In this document: positions 33,161 to 37,425 of the stretch, piece by piece
Numbering within the stretch: position 1 is the first letter of the stretch
How the letters are laid out: each line of letters starts with the position of its first letter
Source: a virus
Virus record (IMG/VR): IMGVR_UViG_3300007512_000009
Span: 1-64,000 of that record
Strand: one strand, 5' to 3'
Length of the DNA: 64,000 nucleotides
Notes under the pieces: model-generated
Database searches by the model: none
The model's input: the letters and a program-made list of their open reading frames with translations, nothing else
Told to the model about the DNA's origin: nothing
Position numbers and translations under genes: made by a program

Positions 33161-34639
33161 TTACCACTGATTCGAAGGTATATGAGGGTTATAATCATTT
33201 CTAGAAGACATTGGTGGTTGGGAAAACGAATTATTTTCTATGTGGGTAATTAAATTATTATTATTTGTAGGACTACTAGGAAATATGGTGGGAACGTTAT
33301 CAGCCATTGAAAGTCTTGTATTTTCTCTTTGCAGTTCAAGACCAGTATTTGATGGTACTGATTGAACATCACCACCGAGGCCCAACATGTCCCTGGCCGC
33401 ATCTGCTATGTCATCACCAATCCAAGGTATATGTGTCAACATGTTTATAACATTGTTAATTGACTTTTTCAATTGTGTAAATATCCAACTAAAGAAATCA
33501 CCAACCGCTTCAATAGGAATAGCAACAAGTCCCATGACCAAATTAAATCGGCTTTTTAAAGTTGACCCAATATTACCAAAGAAATCACCAATCAAATCAA
33601 CAAAATTAATGTCTTTTAAGTCTTTAAAAAATTTAGCCGCACCGTCTAAACCTATCCAACCCATCACTGTTTCTAGCAAGCCCAATACTGAATCCATTAC
33701 TAATTCTGGCATACCAACCATCCAATTTAGTAAAAATTGTCCCAAATCTTCAAGTGCACCTGTGATGTCACCAGAAAACAATTTTTGGAATCCACTAATT
33801 AAATTACCAAAAATGCCTTCAAACACTGCGGAAAAATCATCCATCGATATCAGTCCAAAGGTGAAAAATTCTATAATGCTACCTATAAAGTCACCAATAC
33901 CACCTAGTATATCACCGCTTGCAAATTTATCCCAAGAGCGTATGGTTGCTTCTACCAGTGACCATATTATAGAAATCGGTAAAAGAAACTTAGAGAATGC
34001 TTTACCTAATTGGAAAAATACCTTAAATATCTTTCCCATATGTTTAAATTGAGGAGCAATGAATTTAAAAACAAACTTACCTATTTCAATAAATGGTTTA
34101 AGTATTTTACCGATAACCCTAAAAAACTTACCTAGGGCCTTAAAAAATGTACCAACCTTTTGTAGTCTTCCACCTTTAGAAAAAACTGTTAACCATTTAC
34201 CCCATTTGATGTTTGCAATCCACTGGAAAAAACTGTTTATTTTCTTTACCCCAGGCAACTTACTCATAATTGACCCAACCTGACCAAAAATTCCAGCAAC
34301 AATTCCTGCTGCCAATGCAGGTACTGCTAATAAAAGCAGTTTAACAATACCTGTTAAATTAGTATCTTTAAATGGTTGCGTCATCTCTGATTTAGCATCA
34401 AGGAATGCGTCTTGAAAACCTTCAAGAAGATTTAACATAAAACTTTCACGCTCTCTCTTTTCTTCTTTCGCTTTGGTCTTGGACTCTTGGCCCATTTTAC
34501 TAATACCCGCAGAAACTTTTTTAACTTCCTTGGTTTGTTTTGCATCTTCTACATTAAGTGCTTTTTCATTAGCAAGCATAATATTCTTAGTGAATATACT
34601 TGTTATCGATAGATTTTCTGGGTTATTATCATTAGCCAT
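33161..34639 (-). CDS. tape measure / gp29-like candidate
   Basis: 492 residues. After an N-terminal Lys/Glu-rich helix (50-85) the centre is a long series of hydrophobic helices with Gly/Phe/Ile (LLLLAVPALAAGIVAGIFG, GKFFRVIGKILKPFIEIG, FLLPISIIWSLVEATI), typical of tape measure proteins; the end is Asn/Ser/Pro-rich. T4 gp29 has 590 residues, so a somewhat shorter tail is possible. The gene follows the gp26 frameshift cassette, as tape measures do after their chaperone genes. TATAAATA is six bases before the ATG. Confidence 0.65.
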   Translation of the reverse strand: MANDNNPENLSITSIFTKNIMLANEKALNVEDAKQTKEVKKVSAGISKMGQESKTKAKEEKRERESFMLNLLEGFQDAFLDAKSEMTQPFKDTNLTGIVKLLLLAVPALAAGIVAGIFGQVGSIMSKLPGVKKINSFFQWIANIKWGKWLTVFSKGGRLQKVGTFFKALGKFFRVIGKILKPFIEIGKFVFKFIAPQFKHMGKIFKVFFQLGKAFSKFLLPISIIWSLVEATIRSWDKFASGDILGGIGDFIGSIIEFFTFGLISMDDFSAVFEGIFGNLISGFQKLFSGDITGALEDLGQFLLNWMVGMPELVMDSVLGLLETVMGWIGLDGAAKFFKDLKDINFVDLIGDFFGNIGSTLKSRFNLVMGLVAIPIEAVGDFFSWIFTQLKKSINNVINMLTHIPWIGDDIADAARDMLGLGGDVQSVPSNTGLELQRENTRLSMADNVPTIFPSSPTNNNNLITHIENNSFSQPPMSSRNDYNPHIPSNQW

Positions 34640-34655: not shown

Positions 34656-35530
34656 TTAAAATTTGTTCTGCTCATTCTTTTTATTTTCTTCTTTAATAAA
34701 TTTAGTTAATAAAGTTATGTATACTTGTCTTTCCCATGGTAACATATTTTCTAAATCATTCAATGAATAGTTGTGGTGTTGCATCATTGAAAAATTTGTT
34801 TGATAATAGTTAATTAACGTATCATGACAAAGACCTATGCGAAAAAATCCTGTAGTTTCTCCATTGTAACTGAATTTTCATTTAAACAACTATCACATTT
34901 GAAATTTATCACTTTTTGCATTTTAGGCATCGTTTCAAAGAATTTTTGTATCTTCTCAAATTGCAAGTGGTTAAGACTATCTACGAAATCTGATAGTTCT
35001 TCATCTGTAGAATCTTTTGCCTCATGAACTGTTTTAGCATCATAAATCTTGTCTATGCACATATTTACCACTTTAAGAGGGTTTTCCTTCATGTTTGGTG
35101 AATCAAGCATACCAAAAGTAGGATATCTCATAACAACACCAATGTCATCAGTCAGTTGAATTTTGCTGTCATGACCTTCAGTTTTAATAACACCGACATC
35201 AGAAAGGTTTACTCCGACAAGACATTCATGTTCACATTTTTCACACTTTAACTTTAGTTTGACCGTTTCACCTACCGATTTCGACCTCAAATTTAAAAAT
35301 AGATATTCAATATCAAAAACGGGTAGTGTTTGAACATCAACGTCATCACTTTCTATACAGTTATTAATGATGGTTTTAACTGCATTTGCTAATTCTCTGT
35401 CATCTTCCGATTCAACGGCCATCAATAAAATTTTTTCTTCTTTAACCAAAAACGGTCTATAGTTAATTGTATCACCGTTAGACGGTAATTTTAGACTGTA
35501 TTTTGGTGTTGCAACTTTTGGTAGTGCCAT
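34656..35530 (-). CDS. predicted gp26 -1 frameshift product (gp26 plus 61 residues)
   Basis: The slippery heptamer T_TTT_TTC at 34847-34841 lies in gp26 frame (GAT TTT TTC) two codons before its stop. A -1 shift continues RIGLCHDTLINYYQTNF, then MMQHHNYSLNDLENMLPWER and QVYITLLTKF to a stop at 34656, giving about 291 residues. The extension looks protein-like, begins without its own start codon, and ends just before the tape-measure gene. This mirrors lambda G/GT and similar tape-measure chaperone pairs. An independent small gene starting at one of the internal ATGs (gp51-like) is the alternative. Confidence 0.6.
34835..35530 (-). CDS. 26: baseplate hub / tape-measure chaperone gp26-like
   Basis: 231 residues. 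MALPKVATPKYSLKLPSNGD and INYRPFLVKEEKILLMAVES are the hallmark start of the T4 gp26 family. Two Cys pairs, CEKCEHEC and CDSC, suggest a zinc site. In T4, gp26 is needed for hub assembly; in related phages the family acts with the tape measure. GGAGAT ribosome site. The end carries a -1 slippery sequence. Confidence 0.8.
   Translation of the reverse strand: MALPKVATPKYSLKLPSNGDTINYRPFLVKEEKILLMAVESEDDRELANAVKTIINNCIESDDVDVQTLPVFDIEYLFLNLRSKSVGETVKLKLKCEKCEHECLVGVNLSDVGVIKTEGHDSKIQLTDDIGVVMRYPTFGMLDSPNMKENPLKVVNMCIDKIYDAKTVHEAKDSTDEELSDFVDSLNHLQFEKIQKFFETMPKMQKVINFKCDSCLNENSVTMEKLQDFFA
34841..34847 (-). promoter_or_regulatory. -1 ribosomal slippery site TTTTTTC
   Basis: Read leftwards T_TTT_TTC in phase with gp26, followed by GCA TAG. 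Matches the X XXY YYZ pattern for tandem tRNA slippage. A nearby stop codon can raise slippage efficiency. Confidence 0.6.
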
Positions 35531-35550: not shown

Positions 35551-36303
35551 TTATAACCAATTACCCATACCCCCAATGTTGAAGCCAGTTATCTCCTGTA
35601 AAGTAGCCGCTCCACCATCTGCCCAAACCTCAAACAATTGTGAAAAGTTGAATGGATTACCATACTCTCCACCTAAAATTCCTAACTCCTGCAGAGTACC
35701 ACCCAGACCTTCGTCGAAATTTCTTACTGCAGGTACATCATATAAAAACTCTGCGGCCACTGCACCACCAAAAGAAATAATGGTGGGTACATACCTTCTG
35801 AATGCTAGGGTGACTGATTGTTGAGCAATAGCACCACCACCTTCATTGCTGAGCGTTAATTCACCGATTGCTTTAGGGAACACTTCTTCTACCCTTATTC
35901 GATAAATGGGCATATCAAACTCATTGAGTACGTATATGTACATATCACATTTGTAGTCATCATAATAGGCAAGTCTACCACTTCTTGGGTCTACTATACC
36001 ATCCATCCAAGTTTCAAAAACCCTTCTCTCCCACATATCTTTACCCAAAAATAAATTCAATGTTATTTCTGAACCATAAAGTGAATCATATGGTATCTCT
36101 CTTGAAGGCCCTGCATAATTTTTATCGGGTGCGGTGGCAATTGACCTGCCGGGCGCTGAAACTGAATTACACATTAAACTCATCCTGTTGCCCTGAGCGA
36201 AGTCGGAAATACCTAAAAATCCACTAAATTCAATTAAGTATTTGTTTGGTGTAAATACACCAAACTTCTTTATATTATTTATCATTCTATCTATTCTTGG
36301 CAT
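35551..36303 (-). CDS. tail-tube-like protein (gp54 or tube paralogue)
   Basis: 250 residues. RMSLMCNSVSAPGRSIATAP, then SREIPYDSLYGSEITLNLFL, VFETWMDGIVDP, YYDDYKCDMYIYVL and RVEEVFPKAIGELTLS follow the order of the T4 gp19 tail tube fold. T4 tube protein has 163 residues and gp54 has 320, both with this fold. The true gp19 normally follows gp18, beyond this window, so a gp54-like tube initiator is more likely. Confidence 0.65.
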   Translation of the reverse strand: MPRIDRMINNIKKFGVFTPNKYLIEFSGFLGISDFAQGNRMSLMCNSVSAPGRSIATAPDKNYAGPSREIPYDSLYGSEITLNLFLGKDMWERRVFETWMDGIVDPRSGRLAYYDDYKCDMYIYVLNEFDMPIYRIRVEEVFPKAIGELTLSNEGGGAIAQQSVTLAFRRYVPTIISFGGAVAAEFLYDVPAVRNFDEGLGGTLQELGILGGEYGNPFNFSQLFEVWADGGAATLQEITGFNIGGMGNWL

Positions 36304-36329: not shown

Positions 36330-36971
36330 CTACCGCAAACTATCCATAACATCGTCATGACTTTTCTTCCAGACTCTTTGTTTAGACCATTTCTTAAATT
36401 GTTCAGTTGGCAATCGTATTGCTGAGTTCCAATCGGGAGAAGGTATTAATAACATTTCCGACCTGAACCTAGTCCTTAGGTATTTTTTAAAACAGGGTTT
36501 ATACCATTTTAACCTTGATGCACTCTTTAACCAGTCATATGTAACCCTGAGTCTTGTGAACTCATCATATTGGGTGTTATTTGAATAGTCATCCAAATGG
36601 TTTAATAGTATTTGTCTATATCTTGGTGCAATGTAGTGTAGGTTAAGACCCGTGATGTATGTTTTAGTCACGTCCAAGGTTATGACAAGAGGGAAGGTGT
36701 CGTAGTATTTAAGTGTGGCCCTACCCTTAGGTAGATATCTGAAAGTAAACATTTTACCAGTCTGGTCACCAGAAACAAGACTTCTTAAAGAAGTCTGAGG
36801 GCCTTTTTTAATATGTGATGCCTGTGCAACATCATCATATCCATATTTTTTACCTTCTGAGATTCTGCTAACAGTATCTTTGAACCATCTCCATGATTGT
36901 TTGGTTTCTGGGTCAACCTCAGACATAGAGGAAAGAGTTTTAAGTTTACCAAATGGATTCCGTTTAGCCAT
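36330..36971 (-). CDS. conserved virion protein of T4-like phages
   Basis: 213 residues: MAKRNPFGKLKTLSSMSEVD, QSWRWFKDTVSRI, RATLKYYDTFPLVITLDV, GLNLHYIAPRYRQILL, then SRLKWYKPCFKKYLRTRF. I recall this YYDTFPLV...G.N.HY...R..LL pattern from conserved structural proteins of marine T4-like phages; its role is not known and it may be related to DNA-end or neck proteins. Overlaps the gp4 gene by eight bases. Confidence 0.65.
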   Translation of the reverse strand: MAKRNPFGKLKTLSSMSEVDPETKQSWRWFKDTVSRISEGKKYGYDDVAQASHIKKGPQTSLRSLVSGDQTGKMFTFRYLPKGRATLKYYDTFPLVITLDVTKTYITGLNLHYIAPRYRQILLNHLDDYSNNTQYDEFTRLRVTYDWLKSASRLKWYKPCFKKYLRTRFRSEMLLIPSPDWNSAIRLPTEQFKKWSKQRVWKKSHDDVMDSLR

Positions 36972-37425
36972 GTTTCTTTTTTTTATTTCCTTTTTTATAT
37001 AACACGTCTTCTGTTAAAATCTTAAAGTTCCATCCCTTGTTTTCAGCAAATTCTCTGGCTGCTTTCCATTTAGCACTGTTAACACCCCATCTCATAACTT
37101 CTGTTATATACCTTCTAGTAGGTTTTTCTCTCTTTTCTGGTGCTTTGCACTGTGCTTTTGGTTTAACTTCAATCAAAGTTATTTCTTTAAAACCCTTTTT
37201 ATTTATTGTTTCAACTATGAAATCAACAAAATACCTGTGTATTTTGTTGTCTTTCGGTGATTTATATGGAACAACCACCTCTTCTGAACCCCAGTTTAAA
37301 ACTGAACTGGTGCTGTCACAAAAAACCATAAATCGTCTTTCCCATAAAGACCTATATACCACTTTGGTTGGGTCACCTAGATATTTTGAAGGATTTTTTA
37401 CTCTGTATTTTCCCTTATATGCCAT
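36964..37425 (-). CDS. 4: head completion protein gp4
   Basis: 153 residues: KGKYRVKNPSKYLGDPTKVV, YRSLWERRFMVFCD, VVVPYKSPKDNKIHRYFVDF and TLIEVKPKAQ. This is the gp4 (50/65) family of T4-like phages, which finishes the filled head before tail joining; the DF..E.K residues resemble a TnsA-type nuclease core. A TATAAATA lies 11 bases upstream. Confidence 0.85.
   Translation of the reverse strand: MAYKGKYRVKNPSKYLGDPTKVVYRSLWERRFMVFCDSTSSVLNWGSEEVVVPYKSPKDNKIHRYFVDFIVETINKKGFKEITLIEVKPKAQCKAPEKREKPTRRYITEVMRWGVNSAKWKAAREFAENKGWNFKILTEDVLYKKGNKKKKHG

Follow-up and report, generated by a model that had tools for sequence, protein, structure and literature searches.

The lambda G and GT proteins pair a short tail assembly chaperone (TAC) with a longer form carrying a −1 extension; the extension adjoins the tape measure gene, and the lambda slippery site is G_GGA_AAG. 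T4-like phages have a TAC pair in genes 26 and 51, and a study by Vladimirov, Gautam and Davidson (Virology 566:9-15, 2022) reportedly names both genes in its abstract. The T4-like chaperone scheme is already published (Vladimirov, Gautam and Davidson 2022), as is the link between the T4 hub genes and tape-measure chaperones that an earlier note on this DNA had put forward on the strength of a fused gp26-gp51 form. Two other papers, both citing Vladimirov et al. 2022, report two arrangements in T4-like phages: poly-T −1 signals within TAC-N genes in some (PMC12846349), and a short gene alongside a fused long gene in others (PMC10885494).

The phage described here carries the same genes in their frameshift form and is a new uncultivated member of this group. 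Among the closest described systems are those of Kyanoviridae cyanophages, whose gp26 proteins are about 43 to 45% identical to its own (about 45% at most) and which have the same heptamer and the same −1 extension, although in GenBank their gp26 and gp51 are annotated as separate genes or gp51 is omitted. The extension is unannotated in the GenBank entries for L082 (KF156338), L083 (NC_031944), L087, L089, and L097, in all of which the frame and the heptamer are intact.

Organization of the gp26 locus

The window, meaning the whole stretch of 64,000 nucleotides that was analyzed, is part of a 126 kb virus record. No near-identical DNA was found in phage records, and a separate 4.3 kb contig (L001) has a gp26 and junction identical to those of the window. 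The features of the locus are as follows.

35551-36303, minus strand: preceding gene, a tail-tube-like protein of 250 aa (phrog_45 tail tube, 1.3e-34)
35530-34835, minus strand: gp26, the predicted short chaperone (TAC-N), 0 frame, 231 aa (Pfam T4_baseplate, PF12322, 1.6e-68, 231 bits against a curated cut-off of 24.5; phrog_150, 7.7e-73; the N-domain of the model resembles solved tail assembly chaperones)
34862-34859, minus strand: Shine-Dalgarno-like GGAG, 11 nt before the heptamer, a candidate frameshift stimulator (anti-Shine-Dalgarno pairing compared with synonymous recoding)
34847-34841, minus strand: slippery heptamer T_TTT_TTC, in phase (read directly; T_TTT_TT(C/T/G) in 76/76 non-redundant junctions)
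34835-34837, minus strand: TAG stop of gp26, 0 frame (read directly)
34841-34656, minus strand: −1 frame extension, gp51 (predicted TAC-C), 61 codons plus TAA (phrog_634, 1.2e-27; conserved in relatives; homologous to the T4 gp51 C terminus)
33161-34639, minus strand: next gene, 492 aa, probable tape measure protein (phrog_305 tape measure, a weak match at 5.1e-6; directly after the extension)

The 3′ end of gp26 reads CTA CAG GAT TTT TTC GCA TAG, with one codon (GCA) between the heptamer and the stop. An open −1 frame extends from 34877 to a TAA at 34658-34656, and the first codon after a −1 slip would be CGC (34841-34839), giving an extension that starts RIGLCHDT and ends NEQNKF. The earliest ATG, GTG, or TTG in this frame is an ATG at 34787, 18 codons into the extension, and the match to phrog_634 ("baseplate hub assembly catalyst," gp51), which covers residues 8 to 71 of the −1 frame query, begins upstream of that Met. 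The extension also matches the C-terminal end of phrog_150; an NCBIfam search gave no relevant match, and a sequence search of solved structures gave none. These readings agree with the earlier note, which had described an in-phase T_TTT_TTC near the gp26 end and a protein-like −1 frame, open for 61 codons and beginning upstream of any start codon in that frame. Its proposal of a programmed −1 frameshift in gp26 is strongly supported by the sequence comparisons, with the heptamer present and a conserved gp51 frame at −1 throughout the junctions compared below. Because the window's open reading frames of at least 100 aa contain 191 in-frame X_XXY_YYZ motifs, the heptamer alone is weak evidence, and conservation carries the case.

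Chaperone, extension, and next gene had also been likened to lambda G/GT. For chaperone and extension the analogy is strongly supported, and identification of the next gene as the tape measure gene is plausible from its weak match and its position. Elsewhere in the window, a gp4-like gene (36964-37425, minus strand) ends with A_AAA_AAG in frame, 9 nt ahead of the stop, and with a −1 frame that is open for 63 codons, overlaps the next gene, and may be due to chance.

Conservation of the heptamer and the extension

Among 80 relatives on viral contigs the gp26 end is complete in 79, and all 79 have T_TTT_TTC or T_TTT_TTT with a gp51-like frame at −1, which answers the question of heptamer conservation raised with the original proposal; in one of them (L074) the extension is interrupted. 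A wider set, combining the viral contigs with annotated cyanophages and other T4-like phages and with redundancy removed, contains 76 junctions from marine phages, Straboviridae, Pootjesviridae, and Stenotrophomonas phages. Having been gathered by the heptamer pattern itself, this set has the heptamer in 76/76 junctions (T_TTT_TTC in 57, T_TTT_TTT in 18, and T_TTT_TTG in 1), always with the gp51 frame at −1; T4, S16, the Ackermannviridae-type phages, two incomplete or broken loci, and one T4 stretch without the genes were left out. The heptamer and extension are present in Straboviridae outside the T4 group, in Pootjesviridae, and in one Stenotrophomonas phage. Substitutions per codon position in the extension across relatives are 0.29, 0.16, and 0.50 for positions 1, 2, and 3, and this third-position excess indicates that the extension evolves as protein.

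The sole T_TTT_TTG, which codes for Phe-Leu, is in Rhizobium phage RHph_N34 (L088; gp26 end near 2190). Six relatives (L007, L009, L016, L061, L067, and L080) keep the heptamer and have the 0-frame stop 9 to 42 nt further downstream, so the distance between slip site and stop varies.

The same comparisons bear on whether gp51 is a separate small gene of 43 aa starting at the ATG at 34787, with the heptamer incidental. Such a gene is annotated in GenBank for Syn1, S-RIM8, and OLIVR5, and a Met at the position of 34787 is common in relatives. However, conservation starts 18 codons upstream of this Met, directly joined to gp26; in 30 of the 76 junctions the −1 frame contains no start codon through extension codon 15; and a Shine-Dalgarno-like site accompanies an early start in only 2, leaving 74 without such a start. 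The heptamer is moreover invariant, and T4 gp51 holds the upstream part within one protein. On the grounds of conservation and of the absent starts and Shine-Dalgarno sites, an independent gp51 start was rejected, and a separate gene is highly unlikely.

Sequence signals around the heptamer

In relatives the segment upstream of the heptamer is usually GAG GGR, and the window has GGAG. Predicted anti-Shine-Dalgarno pairing of this segment in relatives is −6.29 kcal/mol, compared with −4.83 kcal/mol in synonymous recodings of the same peptides (z of −8.8), and the corresponding values in the window are −6.4 and −4.1 kcal/mol. Codon choice is biased accordingly, with GAG at 31/49 Glu sites upstream of the heptamer (25% background) and GGR at 52/72 Gly sites (35% background). 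Shine-Dalgarno-like elements in −1 frameshifting are spaced 9 to 14 nt, according to a review (PMC5009743). The upstream GGAG is a candidate stimulator that would probably help −1 slippage. That the element is stronger than synonymous codon choice predicts is a detail that we did not find described in the sources covered, which do not include Vladimirov et al. 2022.

Downstream of the heptamer no significant RNA structure was found in the window, where the fold is no better than shuffles (z of about 0), and a downstream stem-loop or pseudoknot was rejected as a stimulator there. The mean z in relatives is −1.4, and downstream structure may matter in them.

A Shine-Dalgarno-like element shortly before the gp26 stop could instead retain the ribosome, with the extension made by termination-reinitiation coupled to that stop; Shine-Dalgarno-like elements that precede a gene end can take part in coupling (PMC5009743), and a TAATG overlap occurs in some of the Ackermannviridae-type relatives. 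In the window, however, no start codon lies close to the stop, the first in the −1 frame being 50 nt downstream, and reinitiation leaves both the invariant heptamer and the in-frame long form of T4 unexplained. We regard it as extremely unlikely. RNA polymerase slippage on the T run, rather than ribosomal slippage, could also make a long form, the site containing six to eight T bases in a row, but most relatives have a short T6C with its codon phase fixed as T_TTT_TTC, whereas polymerase slippage does not need a fixed phase and longer T runs would be expected; it is likewise extremely improbable. The invariance of F229 and F230 in the gp26 alignment might suggest that a conserved Phe-Phe motif gives rise to the heptamer as a side effect; this is vanishingly improbable, since the first Phe codon is TTT in 76/76 junctions (elsewhere in these genes Phe is TTT at 70% and TTC at 30%), the preceding codon ends in T in 76/76 (44 to 73% for the same residues elsewhere in the same genes), and T4 gp26 keeps FF and writes it TTC TTT. 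By codon usage the heptamer pattern has a naive log10 P of −26.9, a value that ignores shared ancestry.

Relationship to T4 gp26 and gp51

T4 genes 26 and 51, held to be separate in the proposal examined here, are indeed two genes, with gene 26 on the minus strand and gene 51 divergent from it on the plus strand. T4 gp51 (249 aa) itself, however, combines a complete gp26-like domain and the extension within a single frame, and both parts are homologous to the window's, colinear across the junction. T4 gp26 consists of the short domain alone; its gene has neither heptamer nor extension and is followed by gene 25, and other T4-type phages with a separate long gene likewise have a gp26 without heptamer and extension. 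With both a short and a long gene, T4 needs no frameshift.

Several comparisons support this homology. PF12322 matches T4 gp51 residues 1 to 201 (3.9e-52) and also matches T4 gp26, and phrog_150 aligns with T4 gp51 over positions 13 to 280 of its 282 (2.6e-84). BLAST of the extension finds T4 gp51 at 3e-8, and profile comparisons link T4 gp51 to both the domain (1.7e-11) and the extension (8.5e-7). A profile of spliced marine proteins, from which T4 was left out, aligns with T4 gp51 through the junction (7e-9) and with T4 gp26 up to the junction only (1.1e-16). A profile of marine gp26 only does not find T4 gp51 (0.16), and the link between the window family and T4 gp51 requires the spliced profile, Pfam, or profile-profile comparison.

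Ackermannviridae-type phages keep the −1 extension and have no standard heptamer. In this group (L093, L095, and L116-L133, Ackermannviridae and similar) the extension (..DLLSYFVMCDELK..MPWHLD) directly follows the gp26 stop with no X_XXY_YYZ; in Dickeya-type members the stop and a start overlap as TAATG, and the corresponding sequence in others is TAATT. In Vibrio phage D508 (L094:2169 region) the gp26 stop overlaps an ATG (TAATGG) able to start the −1 extension, an arrangement that suggests reinitiation instead of frameshifting in that phage.

Predicted structures

The AlphaFold model of gp26 has a pLDDT of 91, and the top structural matches of its residues 1 to 96 are 3fgx (Z of 8.0), the HK97 tail assembly chaperone 2ob9 (7.7), and YqbN 3klu (7.1), followed by matches with Z of 5.0 and 2.7; Foldseek alone gave no match under E 0.001. 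The resemblance to lambda G/GT goes through this fold likeness to HK97 gp13 and YqbN, not through demonstrated sequence similarity, and the slippery site differs as well, lambda having G_GGA_AAG and the window T_TTT_TTC. The predicted model of a T4-type gp51 has an order of elements similar to gp26 plus three extra C-terminal helices, and comparison of this model with PDB structures gave no match to a chaperone fold.

Discussion

From sequence, model, and analogy, the locus very probably encodes the two tail assembly chaperones of a marine T4-like phage, in which gp26 would be the short TAC-N and a −1 frameshift on T_TTT_TTC would yield a long TAC-NC. In the mechanism that we infer, which includes slippage itself and its efficiency as well as binding partners and chaperone activity, most ribosomes would stop at the gp26 TAG and give the short form, and a minority, probably aided by the upstream Shine-Dalgarno-like GGAG, would slip to give gp26 as far as DFF followed by the 61 residues of the extension. 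If lambda gpG and gpGT are a guide, many short and few long copies would coat the tape measure protein, and the extension would recruit tail tube subunits.

The value of the finding lies in confirming the scheme in a further phage, in showing how widely it is conserved, and in a candidate Shine-Dalgarno stimulator. The finding corrects a widespread gap in annotation: in many marine T4-like phages the gp51 of about 60 residues is listed separately or omitted, and the best interpretation is that it forms the frameshifted tail of gp26. It also supports reading T4 genes 26 and 51, whose products have long been called hub assembly proteins, as the tape-measure chaperone pair. The relatives also form a large natural set for asking how the ratio of short to long forms is set. 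As a tentative proposal, possible rather than probable, an internal Shine-Dalgarno sequence, like that of dnaX, may contribute more than downstream RNA structure to stimulating the frameshift across marine T4-like phages, with related lineages reaching the long form otherwise, T4 by separate short and long genes and Ackermannviridae possibly by stop-start coupling. If true, this would be one gene family with several interchangeable means of setting the same protein ratio.
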